In this document: piece by piece, positions 922 to 25,300 of the stretch
Numbering within the stretch: position 1 is the stretch's first letter
How the letters are laid out: each line of letters begins with the position of its first letter
Assembly (NCBI GenBank): GCA_027596075.1
Contig: JADGJC010000225.1
Location: forward strand, 1 to 64,000
Reading direction: 5' to 3'
Source of the DNA: Rhizophlyctis rosea
Taxonomy: Eukaryota; Chytridiomycota; Chytridiomycetes; Rhizophlyctidales; Rhizophlyctidaceae
DNA: 64,000 nucleotides
The notes under the pieces: generated by a model
The model's input: only the letters and a program-made list of their open reading frames with translations
Database searches by the model: none
What the model was told of the DNA's origin: nothing
Position numbers and translations under genes: made by a program

Positions 922-2906
922 CTAAAGACATTGGCTGTAATCTGTTGATCAGTGGAGCGAGACAAAAAGGGTCAGTGGTAAGCCGGAAAAAGGGATGATG
1001 GTGATGATTTTGCGCAAGGGATGATTCCACAAGCAAGCACGACAGAAACTCACATTGATTGCTAACCGTACACGTCCACGGACTCTGACAACAGGTAGCA
1101 CCAGTCCAAGTCGCTCCACCACATTGACCATACCTCGCCGCGCACGTCCCAGTGGGGGCAGTCGTCGTAGTCGTAGTCCTCGTCACAACCGGCGAAGTAG
1201 TTACCCCAACACTTGTCGTCGTCGTCGTCGACGCCTTCCCACACCCACTCGGCCCCACAACCTCCAATAAATACGTACAAGTCGGATCCTCCCTCAGATA
1301 GTTGAAGACATTCGCACCAGTACCGCAGCGGAAGGACACAACTGCGGTACGGTTACCCCAATCGCCACAGCTGTCGCCGCCCGTGTAGGTTAGTTTGACG
1401 CCAGAGGAGGGGGCGGTGGAGTCGTAGAGGGAGTAGGTGTAGGAACCGGGGTAGCCTAGGACTGTGAGGGCGCCACCGGATTCTTGGAGACAGGCGCCAG
1501 CGAATGTGTCGGCGCAGGGGATGGTGGTGGGGAGGTAGGAGGCGAGGGAGAAGTAGTAGGTTCTGCGAGTTTGGTTTGACAAATATTAGTTTTTCAGGAA
1601 TCTTTGCGGTACTGTGGATTACACGTTCTTACCCGAGACCGCCGGTGAAGACCAAAGGCGAGTTGGCGGCAAGGGAGGTAAGGTTGTAAGCGTAGCCGCC
1701 GACTGTGACGGTTGCTGGGGCGGGAGGACCGGGAGGTGGGGGGATAGGAGCCCGGATGCCGGTGAAGTTTCCTTGAGGGGAGATGGTCTTCAAGTATGTG
1801 GACATCTAGACCCGACGGATGGTTTGGTCAGTATCTGCAAAAAAAGAACCGTTGGTGGGAACGCTTTGCACGAACCAGCTTCAAGGTATTATCCTGGCAA
1901 CCGCCTCCACGAGCAGCAGAGTTCCAGTTGGATGCCTTTCCGGCCCTATAACATCAAAGCAGGGACGGAATGTCGGATAATATCAGTCTCAAAACTTTTC
2001 ATGTTATGTGCTGGAAACAAAAACGGAAAGGCGTGTCCGAAGTCGAACTTACAGATAGGTGTACAAAACGCCAATCTGCGCAACATGTTCGACACGGTTA
2101 CTCTTCGCATAGTAATCAGTGATACAAGTGTCAGCAAACACGGCAGGACCCCAGACATTGGGAACACTGATGTGGAAGTGCCCGTCAAAAGTGTGGAAGA
2201 TCTCGTGCATCACGACTGAGAGGCCGCTGTCTACAAATTTGATAAAAGTACAAAAATTTTGAGTGTCCGCGGATGGGCCTACGCGGCAAGTAGGCAAGCC
2301 CCAAAGCGCAAGCCTTACCACCAAAGAACGTCAACCTCTGCCCATCAGCATACGCAAAATTCCCCTTCAACGCATCCGCATTGTCCTTATTCGCAACCTT
2401 GTACGTCAAAACATACGCCCGAATCTCCTTCGGAACCTGTCCAATACGACTTGCAACCGCATCGATCGTCATAGCATTGTTGGGGCAAACGCAGACCGTA
2501 ACGCTCGTCGTGTCAGCAAAGGAGACGTTGTAAACCTTCGCGCCGATCGCGGCGGGTGAGAATTGACAAGAAGTGTCATCGCCGGTACAGCAGGTGGGTC
2601 GGTCCGTGCAGGAAGTGTAGTCGGAGGTTTGTTGGGTGTAGGTGTAGTTTTGGGTTGGGTAGAGGGTGTCGTAGTTTGTCATGCAGTCGGAGAGGCCGGT
2701 GGGGCAGACCATGGGCTGTGGAAAAAAGAGGTGAGAGACCGTGGACGGCTGGCAGATGGAATGGAGGTGGGACTCACCATCCAGTCTTCATAGCGCTTGT
2801 GGAGGCTGTGACCGTTCGCCGGGACATGGGTAAGGTTGGAGAGGGTGAGACCGTGTACCAATGGTGCCGCAAGGGCAAGTGAGAGGAGGGTTGCGATGGT
2901 CTTCAT
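922..2906 (-). CDS. Secreted HExxH / MRH-domain / CBM1 protein
   Basis: Seven exons with matching phases: 2906-2778, 2715-2319, 2230-2053, 1945-1876, 1805-1633, 1562-1054 and 941-922, giving 491 aa. Residues 1-20 are a signal peptide. A Cys-rich N-terminal half contains HEIFH at 184-188, a zincin-type zinc motif, followed by a segment with DYYAKSN and EHVAQIG; I do not know the third zinc ligand. Residues about 292-424 form a mannose-6-phosphate-receptor-homology (MRH) domain containing LTYTGGDSCG. Candidate sugar-binding residues are Gln342, Arg387, Glu407 and Tyr413, spaced as I recall for CI-MPR domains. A Thr-rich linker leads to a CBM1 (456-491) with GQCGGATWTG. The last exon is only 20 nt and completes the CBM1 end YYSQCL, which supports the model. 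Known: CBM1 binds cellulose and MRH domains bind mannose-type glycans. Inferred: a secreted wall-acting or glycan-binding protein. Protease activity is unproven. Confidence 0.85.
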
Positions 2907-2990: not shown

Positions 2991-5900
2991 GTGCGGACCT
3001 CGACAATGCGCATGGGTGATGTCCCTTTGAATTTTCGAGCACGTTGGGTATATCCGATAAGTTCATTCAACACGATCTTTTGGTAAGCCATGGGAAGTTG
3101 AAGATCATTCAGATTGCTAAGTCCATCAATGCGTTATAGGGCAAAATTTTCATACACATGGTAAGGCGCACTACCTATGGATTCCCTGGTTCCTTCATGT
3201 TTTGTTGTGATCGGAAGATGGCTGCAAGAAAAGTCATTTTTGACGACAACATTCCCATCCGCAGATATGATCTTCGTCGATGAGTGCCTTGGCGTCAAAA
3301 CGTCCACGGCCATGTTCTTCTGCGTGGATGCAGGCACAGTGGTGAGAACTGAATCCTGAAAGTGAAGGCACAAGCGGACGTTCTGATATCAAAAATGCGC
3401 GTGGGTCGGGACGACGGAAGATGAGTCTAACCAGCGCTCCCAGAGTTTACCGATATCCTCCTTTGGACCCATCCGCGAATTATGCCTTCTCGCACGTTCA
3501 AAAGATCCATACCAACACCAGATCCTACGCGTTTGTTGGTGGGATGTTGGGAAAATCCCGGAAGGACAGCTCTACCTCCGAGCAGCCCCTCCGGCCATCC
3601 GTCGTTGGGTCTGCTGGTATCATGTTGATCCGCAAACTCTACTTTTTGTTAGCAAGTTTTCATGCACTGGTTACAGTCCCGATCATTACCTCATCTTCCA
3701 CGAAACGTTCCCAAGCCTTGTGGGCATCGAAGGCATCGCTTGGTGACAACATACACGCTTCCTAATCCGAACATCACATAAGTCCCATCCCGTCAAATCG
3801 AGCAGGTTTGTACGAGAAAATCCCATTCAATTGAACGCAAAAACCCAGAAGGGAAGAAAGCCACGAATGGGCGTCCGTGTTTGGGCTCCGCATGGATGAG
3901 TTTGTGTAACATGTTCTTCTCGGAGCCTCGGAGCTGCGCATGTGGCTGGGACACAATCAATGCGATCTGGTGTAAGCCACACGTGTTTGACTCCGTTCAG
4001 ACTCCAGCAAAATCGATGCAATGGTCCAGGGTGGACATCAAGCCTGTCACCTTTATGGATACATGGTCTTATCATACGGATCACTATTTACCTCGGCTCA
4101 TGCTAATGCTCTGCGTTGACTTGCACCTTTGCATTGTCATGGTTTTGATAACTGCCAACAGTGGCATGAATACAGATGCAATGATGGCCAACGCCAAGCA
4201 ATTCAAAAATGTGAGGTGGATGAATCAACATTAAAATAGCGACTGGGCCTGCCCCTGGTAGCGGCTGTCAGCAATTTTGATGGCGACCGAGTTCGATATG
4301 CGCATCTAAGTCAACGGGCTTGTTGAATTAGCGTGAATCGAAGAGATCTTCCGAGTCTGTCATCAATAGCACTGCAAATCGCAATGGCTCAGCCGAAAAT
4401 GCGAAAAAAAGAGGATGAAATGGAGACTGAGCTGGATGACAAGGAGGTTACTTTGTGTATGCTCTTCGGATGGGTTTCAAATTTCATCGTGAGCCCGTCA
4501 AGTCGGAGCCCCGATCAACCGCAAGTCCATCAAGGATCCAGCTCCTAACATGCTTACGAAGGGACTGTGAGGCTGATTGAACTATTGACCATTGTAAGAT
4601 AACAAAGCTATCTGCATTCCTGTCGTTGAAAATCTGGGGTGCAAGAACAATGGTCGTCAACTCCGATCGCAATGCAATCCTCATTTTTTTTCCAATCTAC
4701 AGCCCGTAACAAATTTGGTAGTTCCTCAACCAGAGACGGATCTATATACCATGTACTACTTAATGCATCATAGATTCACTTGCCATAGCGTGCATTTCCT
4801 CCGACGTGTAGCGCTCAGTCCTTGTAATGATGAAACCCTGCCATCTTGAAACGCAACAATGGTTGATCAAGCAATCATCAAGTTTTGCACCGATTACCCT
4901 GTAAGTGAAGGGGAATGTTGCTCAGCAGGAGGTTCTGTGACCATTGCTCTGCATGCAAGTCGTTTTGTGCCAGCCATCATTTTTCCATGCTGCCAGGATC
5001 GCGACACTTTTCTACCAAGTGATCTTGGAATGCGAATGTTCTGGACATCACCTTGACACTCTGCGTTGCAATCTTTGTAAAGTCTCGTGTACTTGAGCTT
5101 ACTTGGCGTACTTGGGGTGCAGCTCATCCCATGATCGCTCCGCACATCATTTTTCATTTCGAGTGCGGAGTTCACTCATATGATGATGTAGACTCACTGA
5201 TGAAGCACCACTTTCGTTTGCGAAAAGAAGAATTGGAGGTAAAGAATTCTTATTCAGGTACATCTGGGTGCACACAGGTGCATAATTGATTGGCGATTTT
5301 GATATCCATCCATGACGGAAACGAATGCTGCAATGATCTTGACGCTTGTGCAGGAATTTCTCGAATGAATATCACTGCCTTTCCCAATTCACGAATGACT
5401 TTCAACACGTGGCCCCCCTCTGTTCCCCCCAATCCACCAAATGCAACATAACTCCTTGAGTCAAGCATAAGTCAAGATGTCGGGTTCATTTCCTTCGTAT
5501 CTGCCGAATCAATTAAAAAAAAATGGCACGCAAATTGGTCAAAAGAAATGAGCATAACCGTCAAGTCAATTCACACGCCATTTTAGACATTGTGAGACCG
5601 TGCAACACTGATAAGTCCTCTTCTGTACCTTCGCGGTTATCATCTTGGTGGAAGTGAGTGACGTACTTGACGTGGCGAGAGAGAGCTGGAAAAAGCAAGT
5701 CATTCGTGGTGAAGGAGGAACCCTCCGATGATGCTCTTTCTTCAAAAGAAGAATGATGGGCAATTGATATTGTACGTCAGAGAAAATAGAAATCGAGACC
5801 AATTCACCCGAAACCGCGCCAGGACGGAACGATATGGTCCCACAACGGTGTAAACAGCAACGATAATTGGATAAACCACCCGGACGATATGGTCTATTCA

Positions 5901-8900
5901 AACTGCACATACCCATTATACCCAAAATGCCCGAAGCACGCATTTGCTTATTGTTCAAGAGGTTGGGGCATGACGGTGACTTTCAGTTGAGTGATACGAA
6001 TCGGCATCAAAAGGACTGCACAGTATGGAGCATCAGATGCATTAATCGCGCAGCACATAGAAAATGGATGACCATTACAGCATCGCATTTTCTTGTTTGT
6101 CTGGGGTAAACGCATTACTGAGCGCAAATGCATCAGCTCCCCATAGGTGCGCCTTCTTGGATCATTCTTTTTCGTCAATCAACCAAAACGTCTTATCCGG
6201 AGATCATCCAAAGATCACATAGTTCAGAATACAATCAACTCTCAGTGGCGGCAAATGCGCGCGCCTCTCATTTGCGGTCGTTTCTGCAACCCTTAACGGT
6301 TCTTCCCTTTCCATCCGGCATGTGCGGCACAACCGTAAGCAACAGTAGCACTCAGACGCAAAAAGAAACCCCTGGCCGAAGAGAACATACTAATAGATTG
6401 GGAGAGGCATTACGACCGTCGCCAAGTAAAATCAGCAAACTGGGATTTCACTCGACTTTATTCCGCCGTAGATTGAATGAAATCTTTTGCCAAGCTATGA
6501 CAAGTGGTCACATGCCTTCTCGCGTATTCTTTGCATCGTGTCTTGCTGTTGTAAGAGGCTGCTGATGGGCATATCAAGATACGGATGTTACATACCAACT
6601 CAGTCTCCAGCCGATACGGGTCCGCACATGTCCGCCAGTGACTAGTGTACGGTGTAGCAAACCTGTGATATTTGGTCTTTTTTTTTGCTTGCACACTTGA
6701 CCAGTTGGAACTGTTCCAATTTGCCCTTGAACGGCACAAACCTCGCATGGAGTGACAAAGCGTACTTCAAATTGCCGTCTCTGCCACGGGGTCTGAGGCA
6801 TTCTTCTCTGCGATCCGAGCAACATCTCTTTTGCTCAAGTCAGAGCATGATGACGGAGTTCACGATGATCATATGGATGTTGATACCGAGTGGTTTACAT
6901 CTGCAATTTCAAGAAGGGGGGAAGAGATCTGTGCGGTCGCCCATTTGGCTGTGACTTGTCCTCGACAAGGGGCAAGAAGTCCGGACGGCATCGTTCTCCG
7001 CTAGCACCGAGACGGAGTCTTCACCTTACCGATGACTACTTGGTTACAACAAACATACATCCTAATGCGCTGCGCTTCGAACAGATAAGCTGCTGGGTGG
7101 TTTTTTTCTCCAATCTCCGAGGGAACATTTGCGTGGTCAAACACACCAGTGAATTCAAGGAGCAAATTGAGAACGCCGGAGTACTTCGGAGTGTTGGACA
7201 GTTCCAAATGGATAATCTGACCGCTCTCGCCTCAGAGGAATCCCAAAGCGCCATTGGCGGCGATAAGACTTGTGAGCACTTGTCCATGAGTCCAAGTGAT
7301 CTTAAAGAGAAAGAATGATGACCAAAGGGGCCTAGGTTGTCGACAGAAAAGAAAAAGCATCATAGTACCTCGACGGGTTTCTCATATGCAGCAAAGATTT
7401 ACGCGATGCTCGCTGCAGGCCTGCTGTAACTCTATCACAACTTTGTGAAGGCAATCTTAGTGCTGGTTCGTTACCTCATCACTTCTGCATGCCACCTAAT
7501 TTTGAGCGTAGCCCAACTCAGCACAAGGTGCATCGGCCAAAATGTTGGCTGGAGCCTCAATTGAACTCGGACTTCGCAGAAAAGGAAACAACGGGGAGAC
7601 TCCGGAAGGGCGTACTTGAAGGCCGGTTGTCCTTGCCACCCGAATTCCCATTCAACGCTGATGCTTTGCAGATTACCAACGAGATCCAGCGGACGCTGCA
7701 TGACAGTCTCACTCTTTTCGGTGATCCGTCCTGTGGATGGGGCAGAATGATCACCGTCCAAGTGAGGAAATGCCCAATGTATCCAACACGGCCGAGACGA
7801 TATACTTCCAGTCCCCGAAAGTCAGTTTAGGTCGTCACTTTGTTGGATGGAAACGATTATCATGTCGTTGCAGGCGAAGCCAACAGTAATCCTGCAGGCC
7901 AATCGGGTCCCCTTCGACCACTTTCTTTGATTTTCTTTTCAAAGGTTTGGACTGTATGTAGACCCATTTGAGGACAATGCGCCCTTCGCTTATTGAATAA
8001 CACCAACCTCGAAGATCCTGCAAGTATATCAGTACAAGAAACATCGCCAAATCCGTTCTTCCCGCTCACGGCATAACGGGTTTGCTGCCTTCGTAGGGCA
8101 GATTATTATCAAATCCTTGTACTACTTGACAAATTTGCCCATTCTTTGCTCCAACTTAAAGTACGTGATCATGGAAAATTGCGTAGAGTACATTAGTAAT
8201 CCGACATGTTGACGCTCAAAATCACCACAGTCCGTACACATTGCTGAGAAATTAACATCACTCGATTTCTGAAAGCAAAGGCTTGAGAAGCGGTGCATAT
8301 GAAGGGATGCGACACCTTCTGTCTCCCTTCCTGCATGCCCGTTGTCTCCTTTGTTTCACCAATATTGCCTGAATCGTTCGTTACCAGCATCAGCTTAACA
8401 GCACACGCACCTGTTCATTAAAGTCGCCATCATACGCGCCATCGCACTATTCTGTGCAAGGCCTCGTCTGGGGATAGCCCCACCATTCTCGTACATTTTT
8501 TCTCTGTCTTCTGACAGATGGATTGAGGCTGTCCGAAACGAAGTTCACCTCGATTCCAAGTGAGGCGCCTGAGCATTTCGTTTGATCTTGAGTAAGTTTA
8601 ACCAACGAAAGGAAAAGTGAATGTGTAAGAACCCTGTCCATACAGAAACGGACCAAACGGGGTGTCGCCCTTGCACAATCAAACAAATCCCTTCGGATCT
8701 CAGTTCCCAGTCATGAAACCATACATGATAAGATGCTCAGTCTGGCCACAAGAAGACAAGAGCAGAATTGCCACTTTTGCCTAGAGTGCCTAGCAGAAGA
8801 CAGTGGCGGCATGAACCAGTAACCCACATACCACCGAAACGGTGAAAATTACAATCCCTATTTGATAACGCTCGCACCCGTTGAACCACGAAATTTGTAT

Positions 8901-18300: not shown

Positions 18301-18977
18301 GTCTACAACATTTGCCTAGTTTACGCTCATCACTTTGTTGCGCCGATTACTTTTTTTTAGCACCACTGACAAAGTGAGACAACCGGCGATGGGGTCAGGA
18401 TTTTGTGAATTGTAATGTTCAGCGGGCGGCAGCATACCTACTTGTCAGGCTCAGAAAAAGAACGGTCTCAGAAGCATGGTCTATTCAGAACTTTGAAGTC
18501 AGAAGATTCATCATACAATATGCTGGTGCACTATGTGTTTTTTGTATGGTATGGATTCCATTGAAACTATTGAAGGGGACAGTCATTCCATTTATCAGTG
18601 ATGCGATCAACAAATGCCAGTGACGCACGATGTGTCACCCAGTTCTGTGATGCCATCCCATTCGATCCACAACCATCACAACCCGACACACGTCATGCAC
18701 ACATCAACACATCATCGCCTGTGCATGGGAAAAAGGCGTGTCGCAGACCAAACCGCCTCCCTGTCTTGACAATACAAAGACCCATTCCCTTGCCTCCTTC
18801 CCCTCTTCCCACGCTTCCATCCGCGGATACTTGGGGAATCTCATCCATATAGGCGCAACACACATACTGCCCTCCTAACTAACCAGCACCTCGAATACCT
18901 TTGTTTACCTATTTCTCCACCTCATAGCCTATCCCACCGCCACCATCCAACGCCATCTGCATCCCTCATCGCCAAAG
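12391..18977. other. 6.5-kb stretch without a supported gene
   Basis: Only short frames occur (longest 181 aa at 16833-17378 on plus). None has a domain I recognise. Minor low-complexity occurs at about 16415-16450, where a GACCCAGT-type word repeats three times. I found no RNA gene or transposon motif. Confidence 0.5.
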
Positions 18978-21900
18978 ATGGCATCCCCATCCTCACCTTT
19001 CCCACTCACGCAAACAGACTGGGTCATAGTATTCAACCCAAAGATCGCATTTCCAAAGTCAAAGCTGGCTGCCACCGTAGAGGGGAAACAGACTATTGAC
19101 CGTGAACGCACTCGTGCCAGGGCCGCTTGGGATGATGTTATCACTAGGTTGCTGAACGTCGGCTTGAAGTTTCAAATCAAAGAGTGGGAAAAGGGTAGAT
19201 TGGCTGTCTTTGTTTGGTGTCCAAAGACGGTTTTGGCGAGAGAGGCTTATCGTTCGAGGTATGTCAGCATGGGCGAAGCCCATCTTTTGGCGCAAGCGCC
19301 TTGCATCCGCGAAGCGGATATTTTTGTTTTTTGGCGCGAAGCGCCTCAGTATTTGCGGAGCGATTGAGGATATTGGTGATTTGGGAGATGGGCGAAGCCC
19401 AGAATGGGCGCGTAAGCGCTTTGCATCCGCGGAGCGGTGATATCGATGTTTTTTGGCGCAAAGCGCCCAGCTTTCGCGGAGCGAATCGCGCGAGCGCATT
19501 GCACCCGCGGAGCGGATGAGATTTCTGGTATTTGGCGCGTAGCGTCTTAGTATTCGCGAAGCGAATCAGGAAATCAATGATTTGAAGATTGGACTTGAAT
19601 GATAAGTTGACTCACATCATGGCCCTCCTCACTATGCAGAGTTCTTGACTGGCTGAACGACTCTGGGAATGCCGCGCTTGGTGAGTGATGCTGCGCAAAA
19701 AATAGCCTAGTGCAAGTATTGATCGCGAAATAACACATCATATGCATATGCAGAACCCCCAACCTTCACATCCGGCCAGTCCGAGGCCGACGTGTCCCTA
19801 GACCTAACCGCCGCTGAGCGCCTCCGTCTCGTACATGAACTGCTCACCACCCCTACCTACGAGGGTGGAGCCGGTTTGACGATGGAGGAGGGCGTGGTGG
19901 GCAAGACGTCCGCCGTGGGCGGGAAATACATTGAGGCCATCTTCGCCCCGCACGATGTTGACTTTGAGACTGTACGTGTCGTGGTGCGGCTGTATCATGG
20001 CTTAGGCCGAAGATTTTTGATAGTTCAGATTGCGTGTTGTATTGGTTCCATGATCTTACAACCCCATCTCTTGTTCCAATAGAAATGGGTCAAAGCGTGG
20101 TCGAAGAAGTCGATTCTTAGCAGCGCGGATATCAATATGATTCGTGATTACGCTGGAGAGAAGGTAAGTCTATAAGTTCTCTGTCACTGATTACCAACTG
20201 CAGTCGATCAACCTCTTGATCTACCCAGGTCGCGATGTACTTCGCTTTCCTCCGTTACTACTTCTTTTCTCTGGCTCCGCCCGCTGCCATTGGTCTTCTT
20301 ACGTATTTGTTGGACGACGACTACAGTCCGTTCTTCGGTCTCTTCATGGTGCGTGCCAATCTCCATCCCCGATGACGAGACATGACGATGACAAGACTTG
20401 AACTTTACACAAACCATACTAATCGCCCCTCCCCAAATCAGGTAATCTGGGGCATCGCCATGATCGCCGGCTGGAACCGCCAAGCCGCACGCTGGGCCGC
20501 CGAATGGGGCACCCGCAACTACAGCAAGCTCGAAAAAGTGCGCCCTGAGTTCCGTCCGCAGTCCTTGTTTTCCGACCCTGTCACTGGCGAGCGCATCCCG
20601 CAGTACCCGTACTGGAAGCGGTGGATTACGGTTGGGAGCGTGACGTTGCCGATTACGCTTGTAATGGGAGTGGTGTTCTTTGCGGTTGTGGGAACGATTA
20701 CTACGAGCGAGATTTATTTCAAGATGTATTATGATGGACCTGGGCAGGAGGTTTTGGTGAGTTTTAGATCAATTTTCAGATTGATGGTTTCTCCGCTTCT
20801 GCTCTCTTTCCTCGTACTCACCTCACCACCCTGCCAAAAGACCTTCGTCCCCACCATCCTCTACGCAGCCTGCATCCCAGCCCTCAACTCCTTCTACATC
20901 TCCCTCGCGCACCGCCTCAATGATTATGAGAATCGTTTGACGGACAGCGACTGGGACTCATCCTTCACACAGAAACTCTTCGTCTTCAACTCCCTCCTGT
21001 CGTTCTTGCCCCTCTTTGCCGTGTCGTGGTTCTTTGTGCCGTTGAGCGATGCGATTGGAGCGAGGTTGAAGAGTCATGGGTTTATTAAGTTGGATTCTGA
21101 GTTTGGTATGTTGTGTGTGGTTTTAGGCTTAGGTTTTGGTGGGATGGTTCGAAGGGAGTGCCAAGCCGAACAATCGGGAAGCTCTGAAAGAGTGGCCTTC
21201 CCTCTCAATCCCCACACTTTCTAACACCATGCCCTTCTCCTTTCCCCACGAATGCAAACTTTCTCACAGCCGTAGGCCCTGACAACCTCTCCACCCGTCT
21301 CTCCTACTTCGTTCTTACCGCGCAGGTTATCAACACGTTCACGGAGACGATTCTACCGATGGTGACGCGCAAGGCCACGCACGTGGTGAACGACTACCGG
21401 AAGGGGATCAAAGGAGATAAGGACGCTAAGGACGAGGAGGAACGGTTTGAGAGGGAGATGAAGAAGGAGTTTGAGCAGCCTGATTATCGGGTTTATGAGG
21501 ATTATGCTGAGATGGTTATTCAGGTTAGTTTTTGTGGAGGGATTGGAAGGGCTTGAATGTGTCTTGTTGATGGGGTTTGTTTCTTGTTTGAGATCGGGTC
21601 TTTGTTCCGGAGTCTATTGGTTGCTCCTGCTTTCGGAGGACTTAAGGCTGATCTGTTTTTTTTTCCTATTTTTTTCAACATATGCTTTAGTTCGGATACC
21701 TAGCACTTTTCTCCGTTGCGTGGCCGTTGGCTCCCGTTGCGTGCTTTGTGAACAACTTTGTGGAGTTGAGGAGCGATGCGATCAAGATGTGTAAGACCAC
21801 TAGGAGGGCTGTTCCGCAGAGGGCGGATAATATTGGGCCTTGGGGTTTTATTTTGGTGAGTTTCTGTTCTCTGGCGTGCATATGAGATGTACTCGGTCAT

Positions 21901-22392
21901 GATGGCAATCTTTTGAGGGCTTTTTGCTATTTGACATCGAATGTTTCACTAACTTTCTTTCTGCAGGGCCTAATCTCCTGGCTCGGCTCCATAACCACAA
22001 CCTCAATCACAACCCTCTACCGAAAATGGAACCCCAAACTCCCGGCATCGATCCAAGCGACGCAGCGTCTTCCTTACATCCTCCTCTTCACCCTCCTCGC
22101 TGAACACGCCTACTTCCTCATCCGCTTTATCATCACTTCGACTGCGAATAGTGTACCTACCAAGGGTGTGGAGAGGAGGAGGCGGGCGGAGTTTGAGATG
22201 AAGAAGAAGTATTTGTTGAAGGCTGGGATTGATGTTGGGAATGGGGAGGGGGGACGGGGAGGGGGGTGGAAGGAGGGTGAGGGTGAGGGGGAAGGGAAAG
22301 TTAGGGGGGTTGGAGGTGGGGAGGGAGAGAGGGAGAAGGCGGTGCTTTATGGGGTTGCGTTGAAGGTTATTCATGGGGTTTTGGAGAAGTGA
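18978..22392 (+). CDS. TMEM16/anoctamin family membrane protein (fungal scramblase type)
   Basis: Ten exons in consistent phase: 18978-19258, 19640-19680, 19754-19971, 20083-20163, 20229-20348, 20442-20756, 20841-21105, 21270-21523, 21691-21855 and 21967-22392, giving 721 aa. This is close to the roughly 735 aa of the Aspergillus and Nectria TMEM16 scramblases. The cytosolic N-terminal domain is followed by about ten membrane segments. Diagnostic stretches are YFAFLRYYFFSLAPPAAIG, LNDYENRLTDSDWDSS, MVIQFGYLALFSVAWPLAP and FVNNFVELRSDAIKM. Calcium-site acids line up as Asp518, Glu521, Glu550 and Asp554, with the same spacing as afTMEM16 D511/E514/E543/D547. Known for the family: Ca-activated lipid scrambling and/or ion conduction; yeast Ist2 instead tethers ER to the plasma membrane. 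The tail (about residues 660-705) is Gly/Glu-rich low complexity. Intron 1 is unusually long (381 nt) because it holds a mini-hairpin array. Confidence 0.93.
19269..19566. repeat. Array of about 14 GC-rich mini-hairpins in TMEM16 intron 1
   Basis: Closely spaced inverted repeats each have a 4-6 bp stem and a loop of GAA, GGA or 2-4 nt. Perfect examples are ATGGGC-GAA-GCCCAT (19269-19283), GGCGC-AA-GCGCC (19289-19300), ATCCGC-GAA-GCGGAT (19305-19319), GGCGC-GAA-GCGCC (19333-19345), TGGGC-GAA-GCCCA (19389-19401), GGCGC-AAA-GCGCC (19455-19467), TTCGC-GGA-GCGAA (19473-19485) and ATTCGC-GAA-GCGAAT (19552-19566). Stem sequences differ but stay complementary, and loops stay purine. T-rich spacers of 5-20 nt separate them. 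GCGAAGC is known as an exceptionally stable DNA mini-hairpin. Origin and function are unknown. Confidence 0.9.
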
Positions 22393-25300
22393 GGGTGTGG
22401 GAGGGTGACTGGAGTGGACGTGGGTTGAGGTGTTCGTTTGGGTTTTTTGGTGGTGTTTTTAGGGAGTTTTTCTGTTTTTAGTTATTGTATTGATTGGAAA
22501 TACGTGTGATCATCATATATGTTGTTGTGTAAGCGTTGGTGGCAAAGTTGGTAAACTTGCGTCGTTAGAATCATGTTTGGGTGTGCGGGACTGTTAAAAG
22601 CGCATGTCTCCCAAGTAACCTTTTCTGCAGTCGCTGGTTTTTTTCCTGGCCTTGATTATGAAAAGGTCTCTCGCCTCCCGAGATTTGGTTGTTAGCTATG
22701 CTCCCAGATGGTTGATTGACGAGATCAAACGGTGGTCATAGATATCAGTCGTTCCATACTGCCATTTCGATTTCATGTTGAGTCGGGGTTGACCCTTTTT
22801 TTTGGGCGAGGGTTTTGCGGGAAGCAGAACGCGACGAATTGGCGATGCTGGTTGGTGGGGAAAAGAAGTTGCGATGGAAGTTCACTTGTGTACTTAGTGT
22901 CAGAGAATGTCATTCGCATAAGTTGAGCGAGACGCCATGTTGCCGGATCCCGTGCCTTTTTGGACACAGCACACTATGCTAGGTATGTAGCTCCAGATAC
23001 AGCCCGATGGAAACACTCACAGCACCTTTGCGGATAAGAAAAAAAGAAGGCCTGAACATTGGCGCATGACTTTGCAATGTTGGCAGGGCCGGTGATATGC
23101 GGGCCAACACCGGAGGTATTGCCCATCGGGATCTGCCCATGGGCATAGCCGTCGGTGAGCTTTTCTTGTAGATTGTAGGCCTCAGTGTCCCAAGTGGATT
23201 TCACACGTCGAGGAGAGATTAAGAAGGAAGGAAAGGGGGGGAAAACAGGCAGTGCTACGCTTAATGGACAGAACTTCATCGGTGAACCGATCCAGGCGTT
23301 CCCAAATGGAGAGAGGTGATTACACTGATCAACGTTTCCATTACCTGCATAACCACTGGAAAACACTTCCTGACAGCTCAACCTGTATCTAACGAGCTGT
23401 TCACTTTCATGACATCTTGTTGCGTGACACTGAAAACTCTTCATCAGGTATGTCATCATATGCCTCAGGCATGTGGCAGCAAACTGGCCATGGTCGGAAC
23501 ACGGGAAGCGAGATGCATTTGATCATTTTTCATGCGTCTTCCCGTTGATCAGCCAGAAGTTTACGAATGTGTGGGGCGTTTCTGACATATGTTTGCTTTA
23601 GAAGACGCATTTTGATGTATCTCATTGATACATTGTGATGAAGCGCAGCGATAGAATCCACACGCTGAAACCAGTCTACAACATGGTAGATATTTCTGAA
23701 AATTCCCTACGTCATTGCATTTGATTGTGACTTCCTTTTTTGTGCTATGCTGACGGATGCTGTTTGGCTCATTTGGCGCAGCACCACTTCCCCCAGTTGC
23801 TAGAAAGCAGAATCAGGACGGGGCGGGACCATCAATTGAGTAGTGCCAAGGGTACTTGCTGTGACCAAGCCGCATACATATGCGTCTGGTATCACTGCCG
23901 GTGTCTGTTCGTGTCTTCTTTTTCAGACGCTCCTTTGGGGTCTGGCCTGGAGTCATTCGGACGGGAGCGCAATCTCAGCATAATGTATGATTGATTTGGA
24001 AGGGCCGAGATATTCTCTAGTCGGCTTTTGCGGCCGGTAAACAGAACTGAGAGAATGGAGATTGGCAGGATCTTCCTTTTCATTCTGGCCAGCGGAGGCC
24101 ATTGCGAGAAGGGTTTTCAGGCGGAAGGAACAAAAATCAAATCACCAGCTTGGAGACGGATGTGGGCTGACCTCGTGCTTTCCTGTGTGCTGTCCATTGA
24201 ATGCAACATGGTTGTATATGTCATATGTCGTGCGGCAATTTGTTGACCACAAGAGAGTTCAGCCATCACCGACATCATTGGATGGCAAGTTTGTCATGCA
24301 AAAGCGCGACCTGAACGCCAACATCTGTTTGAAAAAGAATCCAAGTTCCCGTTTTGAGAGCTCATAATCCTAGCGGGCGTCTACAACAAGCCGTGCAATG
24401 AGTTGAGTTGCCTTGATGTTTTGCGTACATTTGCATCCTCGTGGAGGAACCCTATCTATCAGTGATGCCATCGCGGAGCAACCCGTTGGGGTGGAGGGCG
24501 GTAGCGGTTTAAGGATTGACAACATGTTCATGTAGACTTGTTGTCTTAATGCCCTGCAATGAAGGACTGTTCGCGTTTTCTCGACCGTGCGTTATGTGGT
24601 GTTGTTGTTGAATGAGATTCCTGTTTTAAGTTTTTCGTATTGATTGAAATTATGTAGTATCGTCATATTTGGCGGTGTCGAATGTTTGATATTCAACCTC
24701 CTCCATTTAGCAATGTGTTGGAGACTAGGAAAGTACTGACCAATGATAAACCTTCTGATGAGCCGGCTTCACAGATCACATGGAAGCACAGCTGAGCGTT
24801 CGGTGAAAGTGCACAGTATGGAGCTCAGTTAACTCGTGCCATTTCGAGGATTTCACCAACTCCAATTGATGGGACAGTGGGTTGACAACGAGCTGCTAAG
24901 CTTGTCAGGTTAGACCACGACAACGGAAAAGAAAAGCGGACAAATGGCCAGACTCGTGGAAGAACGGAAGTGACTACGTTGCGTTCATGCTCACGAGGGA
25001 GAGTCATTCATTGCGGAATCCAAGTGTCAAAGGTGTCAACGACTACAGTATTTGCACTGGAAGTACTGAAGGCACTGAAGCCAGTGAGTGCAGCTTAAGG
25101 GTGGGAAAAAAGGAAAGCACTGCGTGAGGATTTCGTGATGGCAGACTTTTAGCATTGCTGCTGTCATCTTCGTCGTAAGTCTTACCTGCATCAGTTGATG
25201 ATAAATTTTTGACTTCTCATGAAATGGTTTGGCAAAAGTTGCAAATGATGATTGGCCTCAGAAGAAAACAAACCGAGACTGACATAGCGGCCAGTCCAAC

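Follow-up and report, generated by a model that had tools for sequence, protein, structure and literature searches.

Arrays of GNA-loop mini-hairpins lie in sense orientation in nuclear introns of Rhizophlyctis rosea

Organelles and bacteria are known to carry short hairpin repeats. Here, we describe many dispersed runs of hairpins of about 15 nt in the nuclear genome of the soil chytrid fungus Rhizophlyctis rosea, built on the core GC-GNA-GC and with a stem-length peak at 6 bp. What looks new is their setting, which is nuclear, intronic and sense-oriented. From the location, orientation, loop rule and covariation observed in the sampled arrays, we infer that transcription of these introns exposes the non-template strand, that DNA hairpins form on it and that self-templated copying perfects them, a mechanism to which we assign a probability of about 40%. 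Two other readings compete with it most strongly: a repeat family of the introner-like type, and selection that acts on the structure of the pre-mRNA. If our reading is true, intronic sense arrays with covarying stems and a DNA loop rule would be a natural record of single-stranded DNA hairpins formed at transcription time, would allow a direct test of palindrome perfection by self-templated repair, and would show one route of intron growth. If the arrays are an introner-like family instead, invasive intron sequence would extend to a chytrid.

Results

A dense hairpin array in a TMEM16 intron

The window, by which we mean the whole stretch of 64,000 nt that was analysed, comes from an assembly of 634 contigs and 44.1 Mb. 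It carries a TMEM16/anoctamin-family gene on the + strand (18978-22700; ten exons joined, the end of the last being approximate), whose protein shares 99% identity with HDV00_004585 of Rhizophlyctis rosea and matches Pfam PF04547. Its nine introns measure, in order, 381, 73, 111, 65, 93, 84, 164, 167 and 111 nt, and the sizes given in the original prediction (381 nt, with the other eight at 65-167 nt) are exactly right. Intron 1 (19259-19639, + strand, GTATGT...CAG, 381 nt) bears the array. Since the protein sequence across this exon join is kept in five chytrid homologues, the array is very likely removed by splicing. The host is a nuclear-type gene with GT-AG introns and not mitochondrial DNA, so the nuclear setting that the prediction presumed holds.

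Fourteen non-overlapping hairpins follow one another on the + strand between 19269 and 19566. Nine are plain GC-closed triloops, eight of them with a GNA loop and one with AAA: ATGGGC-GAA-GCCCAT (19269-19283), ATCCGC-GAA-GCGGAT (19305-19319), GGCGC-GAA-GCGCC (19333-19345), TGGGC-GAA-GCCCA (19389-19401, overlapped by the alternative GCCCA-GAA-TGGGC at 19397-19409), CCGC-GGA-GCGG (19427-19437 and again 19505-19515), GGCGC-AAA-GCGCC (19455-19467), TTCGC-GGA-GCGAA (19473-19485) and ATTCGC-GAA-GCGAAT (19552-19566). The other five comprise GCGC-GTAA-GCGC with a GNNA tetraloop (19408-19419); GGCGC-AA-GCGCC (19289-19300) and GCGC-GA-GCGC (19488-19497), both drawn with a 2-nt loop that would open further in practice; and two with a wobble in the stem, the weak TTGC-GGA-GCGA (19353-19363, one T.G pair) and GGCGC-GTA-GCGTC (19534-19546, one G.T pair), which were read from the sequence and whose cores are in the computed hairpin list. 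A diverged tandem structure with a period of 122, 1.8 copies and 80% matches runs through 19269-19484 of the + strand.

A mechanical count over the whole 381-nt intron, which counts overlapping forms and includes a hairpin outside the array at 19571-19583, found 13 triloops with stems of at least 4 bp and 10 with stems of at least 5 bp (shuffle means 1.94 and 0.54). GNA loops numbered 9, 7 and 3 at stems of at least 4, 5 and 6 bp, where shuffles averaged 0.136, 0.042 and 0.014, and none of 5000 dinucleotide-preserving shuffles of the intron equalled any of these counts. The dense mini-hairpin array originally claimed for this intron is therefore real, with a density far above that of the shuffles. 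When 381-nt segments were taken every 50 nt through the 64 kb, three or more GNA hairpins of at least 4 bp occurred only where the segment overlapped the array, and elsewhere there were 0-2.

The folding energy of the whole intron is not unusual (z -0.67 for + strand DNA, -0.58 for RNA and -1.73 for - strand DNA), and we rejected overall stability as evidence for the array. The departure from chance lies in the local hairpins and not in total stability. Two database results were taken as chance: plasmid matches to intron 1 in five records (33-38 nt, E 0.3) and an Rfam CRISPR-repeat match in window positions 18900-19800 (26.7 bits against a gathering threshold of 37, E 0.097).

Hairpins of the same kind across the nuclear assembly

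A DNA search of the R. rosea genome with the whole of intron 1, by a method that skips common words, returned only the self-match. We then counted pairs of GCGRAGC words spaced 10-40 nt apart, which gave 164 + 162 places. The reversed pattern gave 53 + 65, but as a control it is contaminated, because the reversed word is present within hairpins. A cleaner test combined a fixed stem with any three-base loop, again against a reversed control; GNA is expected by chance in 1/8 of triloops when either strand may carry it. GCCAGC-NNN-GCTGGC occurs at 45 genome sites (reversed control 3), and its loops are 26 GAA, 10 GGA, 2 GCA, 4 AAA and 3 others, so that 38 of the 45 are GNA. For GTGCGC-NNN-GCGCAC there were 74 sites against none in the control, with GNA in 45 of the 50 matches listed, and for GGCGC-NNN-GCGCC 67 against 23, with GNA in 28 of the 50 matches listed. 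The original prediction had proposed looking for further copies in the genome, and many hairpins of this kind are indeed spread over the nuclear assembly.

Stem extension was measured in 260 kb, made up of the window and 20 ten-kb regions hand-picked from about the first 100 of the 326 GCGRAGC-pair places, with preference for places with several hits; the resulting rates are therefore not genome averages. In this sample, 23% of 233 GC-GNA-GC cores extend to a stem of at least 5 bp and 17% to at least 6 bp; for the 1658 cores whose loop is not GNA, the figures are 3.0% and 1.0%. The GNA cores have stems of 2 bp in 118 cases, 3 bp in 31, 4 bp in 31, 5 bp in 14, 6 bp in 33 and 7 bp in 6. All four outer pairs form in 48 of 151 cores within 28 arrays, a count that includes the arrays of L037 and L042, against 14 of 1782 background cores. 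Seven of 26 arrays are poor, with just 0-1 GC-closed hairpins of at least 4 bp.

Two local arrangements were also seen. On contig C162 (44473-44825), the GTGCGC hairpin occurs five times at 83-85 nt spacing, with loops GCA, GCA, GAA, GAA and GAA. In L041 (contig C53), near-copies of a two-hairpin module lie 1.4 kb apart in opposite orientation, at 74268-74297 (-) and 75731-75764 (+), one with GAA in both loops and the other with GGA in both.

The placed arrays lie mostly in demonstrated or probable introns and point in the sense direction

Many arrays are flanked on both sides by coding-like segments on the same strand, with donors preceding and acceptors following. We placed 21 arrays relative to genes; the placed set leaves out L051, the second + strand array of L041, L053-L055, L012 and L030. 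Nine lie in demonstrated introns of 250-549 nt (the window, L036, L041, L043, L044, L047, L048, L049 and L052), 11 in probable introns (L033, L034, L035, L037, the second array of L038, L039, L040, L042, L045, L046 and L050), and one, L038 4479-4609, ahead of an ATG that was identified by eye. The 11 probable introns have an adjoining sense exon and donor, without domain proof, and some of their acceptors are uncertain. In all 21, the GNA loops are in sense orientation, that is, on the non-template strand. Single reversed hairpins occur inside sense arrays, as 2 TNC loops among 97.

The introns were set by hand because the automatic intron caller could not be relied on: it failed to call the TMEM16 intron already known, and for L040 and L048 the antisense strand outscored the sense strand. 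The hand-set introns were checked by Pfam continuity and by the TMEM16 alignment. After splicing in silico, a Pfam domain spans the array-intron junction in eight of nine proteins tested, namely NOG1_N (1-160), HSF (1-100), Cu-oxidase_3 (3-118), ArgoN (1-142), Thioredoxin_6, DNA_pol_phi, Cation_efflux and Tim17, the last at 31.3 bits, below its cut-off of 32.7; the ninth protein had no Pfam match. A Pfam scan of 20 downstream open reading frames identified WD40, NOG1, PHM7/RSN1 channel-like, HSF, cation efflux, thioredoxin-like, Argonaute, DUF3535/HEAT, multicopper oxidase and DNA_pol_phi families, with no match for 8 of the 20. The reading frames of L035, L037, L038 and L039 are doubtful.

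In L038 (contig C156), arrays at 4479-4609 and 5031-5317 flank the apparent first coding exon of one gene, the first array standing upstream of the ATG and the second in the next intron, in a frame read by eye.

Stems change while pairing is kept

We aligned two neighbouring hairpins in 17 rows, chosen for a recognisable hairpin; rows without a recognisable upstream hairpin were left out, the L034 row is shifted by one base, and L049:4942-4963 is a fragment that lacks the first hairpin and duplicates a stretch of a different row. Of all cells, 95.9% have the named pair formed, against 89.4% in shuffled alignments; the choice of rows biases this percentage upward, so that two-sided changes are the better measure. 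Such changes occur in 4 pairs (shuffled 2.0, reached in 20 of 500) and 11 cells (shuffled 3.2, reached in 0 of 500). The alignment has a covariation score of 0.198 (0.094 when shuffled), which none of 500 shuffles reaches and which is lost when the partner is slid. Stem variants of the first hairpin include GTCAGC/GCTGAC, CCGAGC/GCTCGG, GCGAGC/GCTCGC and GCCAGC/GCTGGC. The claim that stems vary while complementarity is kept is borne out by this covariation between related arrays, and by the presence of the same core in arrays that are unlinked at E<1e-5.

A loop rule that fits DNA hairpins better than RNA

Stable RNA hairpins prefer tetraloops such as GNRA, and the RNA counterpart of the GCGNAGC mini-hairpin is far less stable. 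The sheared G-A pair in a GNA loop requires positions 1 and 3. In 7553 array bases, from which L037 and L042 (one minisatellite) were left out, stems of at least 5 bp close 83 triloops, 6 tetraloops, 4 pentaloops and 8 diloops. Seventy of the 83 triloops are GNA (GAA 47, GGA 13, GCA 9, GTA 1). Among 97 GC-closed loops with at least three of four outer pairs, counted again without L037 and L042, 85 are GNA. Position 2 of the loop is variable and position 3 fixed (GGA 18, GCA 9 and GTA 2 against no GAG); AAA, a change at position 1, occurs three times.

Single stem mismatches are G.T in 12 cases, A.C in 7 and others in 18, so that G.T is not in clear excess (p 0.36). With L037 and L042 included, interior mismatches are G.T 14, A.C 6 and others 8, and 7 of these 14 G.T come from that minisatellite. 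Some RNA-type wobble tolerance may therefore be present; the numbers are small.

In vitro, DNA mini-hairpins are extraordinarily stable when a GNA or GNNA loop is closed by at least two G-C pairs, GCGAAGC having a Tm of 78 C, and a non-canonical G-A pair is mentioned in a figure legend (PMC4686876, from the part of the text available). An RNA structure would match the arrays less well than this d(GCGNAGC) DNA mini-hairpin does, and we take this to suggest that it is the fold of single-stranded DNA, rather than that of RNA, which is maintained.

A model for the origin of the arrays

RNA that pairs with the template displaces the other strand, and this non-template strand is the sense strand. 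Our model suggests that in transcribed introns this strand would be exposed, in an R-loop or a transcription bubble, aided by G-rich sequence upstream of many arrays. GC-GNA-GC seeds on the exposed strand would fold into mini-hairpins of great stability. Their stems would then be perfected as repair or replication copies one arm from the other (quasi-palindrome correction). Slippage and gene-conversion-like copying would enlarge the arrays and carry some of them between introns. As exons would not tolerate arrays, these would persist in introns, lengthening them.

GGTGGG and GGAGGG words on the same strand number 34 in the 300 nt upstream of the arrays against 13 downstream (5 and 9 on the other strand), and 13 of 18 clusters have at least one such upstream word. 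We count several points against the DNA-hairpin reading: the window array has no upstream G-rich word, and the poor arrays, the two TNC loops, the G.T mismatches as counted with L037 and L042 and the ordinary folding energy do not favour it either.

A broader claim is that the nuclear genome makes or uses a single-stranded DNA architecture, through self-templating mutation or through selection, for example to keep the strand open or to bind a protein, and that the arrays, shaped by folding of the DNA, are a class of intron feature defined by DNA and not by RNA structure. We hold this broader claim to be somewhat doubtful.

Kinship among arrays and rival explanations

Sequence similarity at E<1e-5 links 20 of 26 arrays into one family, examples being L036-L053 (78% over 153 columns) and L030-L052 (76% over 154 columns). 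Some dispersal has therefore happened, which goes part of the way towards the mobile-element idea in the original prediction. The shared ancestry of these 20 arrays alone would explain their shared hairpins through copying, and this counts against the DNA-hairpin reading. The arrays could then be an introner-like or mobile repeat copied between the introns of unrelated genes, with the hairpins as the body of the element; their uniform sense orientation in the nine demonstrated and 11 probable introns would follow if a working intron, or part of one, was copied. Among fungi, both introner-like elements and stwintrons that have inverted repeats have been described (PMC8469720, in the part available). 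Against such a family, the window array is not linked to it at E<1e-5, a threshold at which L033, L040, L046 and the L037/L042 pair also stay outside. The window array joins the main family at E<1e-3, as do L033 and L040, and its best matches to other arrays are 15-30 nt, about the size of a hairpin. Because such arrays are unlinked at the stricter threshold, the core and the loop rule occur in arrays whose common origin is weak or unsupported. The splice-site regions of the array introns also differ by eye, and a search of the R. rosea genome for the Y1 transposase PF01797 gave 0 matches (the search control matched in 5 of 14 genomes). We consider an introner-like repeat unlikely, though a serious contender.

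Alternatively, the hairpins could be under selection in the pre-mRNA, where they would shorten the distance between splice sites or hide false ones. The intronic location, the sense orientation and the two-sided stem changes would all suit such a role, as would the length of the demonstrated array introns compared with the other TMEM16 introns (250-549 against 65-167 nt). However, triloops dominate over tetraloops by 83 to 6, G.T shows no clear excess (12 against 7 A.C; 14 against 6 with the minisatellite included), and the intron RNA folds no better than its shuffles (z -0.58). Selection on pre-mRNA structure is distinctly less probable.

Ordinary minisatellites, in which a GC-rich unit duplicates in tandem and drifts, leaving structure as an incidental outcome, would account for the period of 122 in the window, the regular spacing on C162 and the unit of L037/L042. 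They would not predict the two-sided stem changes, the perfect outer stems (48 of 151 against 14 of 1782 cores) or the identical loop rule in arrays without a sequence link, and we regard this origin as improbable. An entry of mitochondrial hairpin elements into nuclear introns has a precedent in Volvox carteri, with nuclear copies of organelle palindromes (PMC2670323), and double-hairpin elements were first found in the mitochondria of chytrid-type fungi (PMC10085805, both in the parts available), but the sense-only orientation of 21 placed arrays is unexpected of random insertion, and this is the least credible origin of all. A COX1 search of the R. rosea assembly gave no match; since introns can interrupt the cox1 genes of fungi, its absence is not thereby proven.

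L037 (4695-4992, contig C139) and L042 (4837-5105, contig C155) represent a second array type, a minisatellite with a unit like CCGCGAAGCGGTGGATATGGGTTCCGCG that has the same hairpin core without a sequence link to the main family. Words similar to it also occur on contigs C93, C98 and C146.

Discussion

We found no description of nuclear intronic GNA mini-hairpin arrays in the literature searched, whose coverage is partial and leaves novelty unproven. Several known systems share some of their features; the comparisons below refer to the available parts of the cited sources. The d(GCGNAGC) mini-hairpins have a GNA or GNNA loop closed by G-C, and the arrays follow this pattern with their loops GAA, GGA, GCA, GTA and GTAA; the mini-hairpins are in-vitro objects, and natural intron arrays are absent from the available part of their description (PMC4686876). 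Introner-like elements and stwintrons are related repeats in the spliceosomal introns of unrelated genes, and stwintrons also share an inverted-repeat structure (PMC8469720, PMC4457414, PMC9860276). There, however, the whole intron is the repeat unit, with terminal inverted repeats of 45-55 nt (PMC8469720), whereas the R. rosea arrays consist of many 15-nt hairpins in the body of the intron. A word search of PMC9860276 did not find 'chytrid'.

The double-hairpin elements of fungal mitochondria are likewise short, GC-rich hairpins dispersed in non-coding DNA. They are mitochondrial, paired and largely conserved in sequence, unlike the nuclear, intronic arrays with changing stems described here (PMC10085805, PMC7218506). 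In Volvox carteri, short palindromes occur in three compartments, including the nucleus, but they have TAAA/ATTT loops, are conserved in sequence and lie in both orientations, and their nuclear copies are thought to be inert and organelle-derived (PMC2670323).

Beyond R. rosea, GNA mini-hairpins with varied stems turn up in three Clostridia genomes and a few contigs of viral collections, so the hairpin type is not peculiar to this fungus. Among IMG/VR contigs, L124 at 6982-7102 (-), L150 at 1341-1489 (+) and L067 at 8249-8431 (-) carry successive GNA mini-hairpins whose stems differ. Viral contigs hold at least 119 stretches with GCGAAGC triplets. In 122 viral and other loci, 8 of 146 GCGNAGC clusters have two or more stems of at least 5 bp, so that clustering of the word alone does not amount to a hairpin array.

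Bacterial REP-type palindromes are short, interspersed, extragenic sequences tied to a Y1 transposase (RAYT). As interspersed short palindromes they resemble the R. rosea hairpins, and a GNA mini-hairpin pair is also present in the three Clostridia genomes. All three are metagenome-assembled genomes (L175, L176 and L177), and in each GCCAGC-GAA-GCTGGC is followed by TGCGC-GAA-GCGCA and then by a longer inverted-repeat-like sequence; this pair is possibly a REP-like element.
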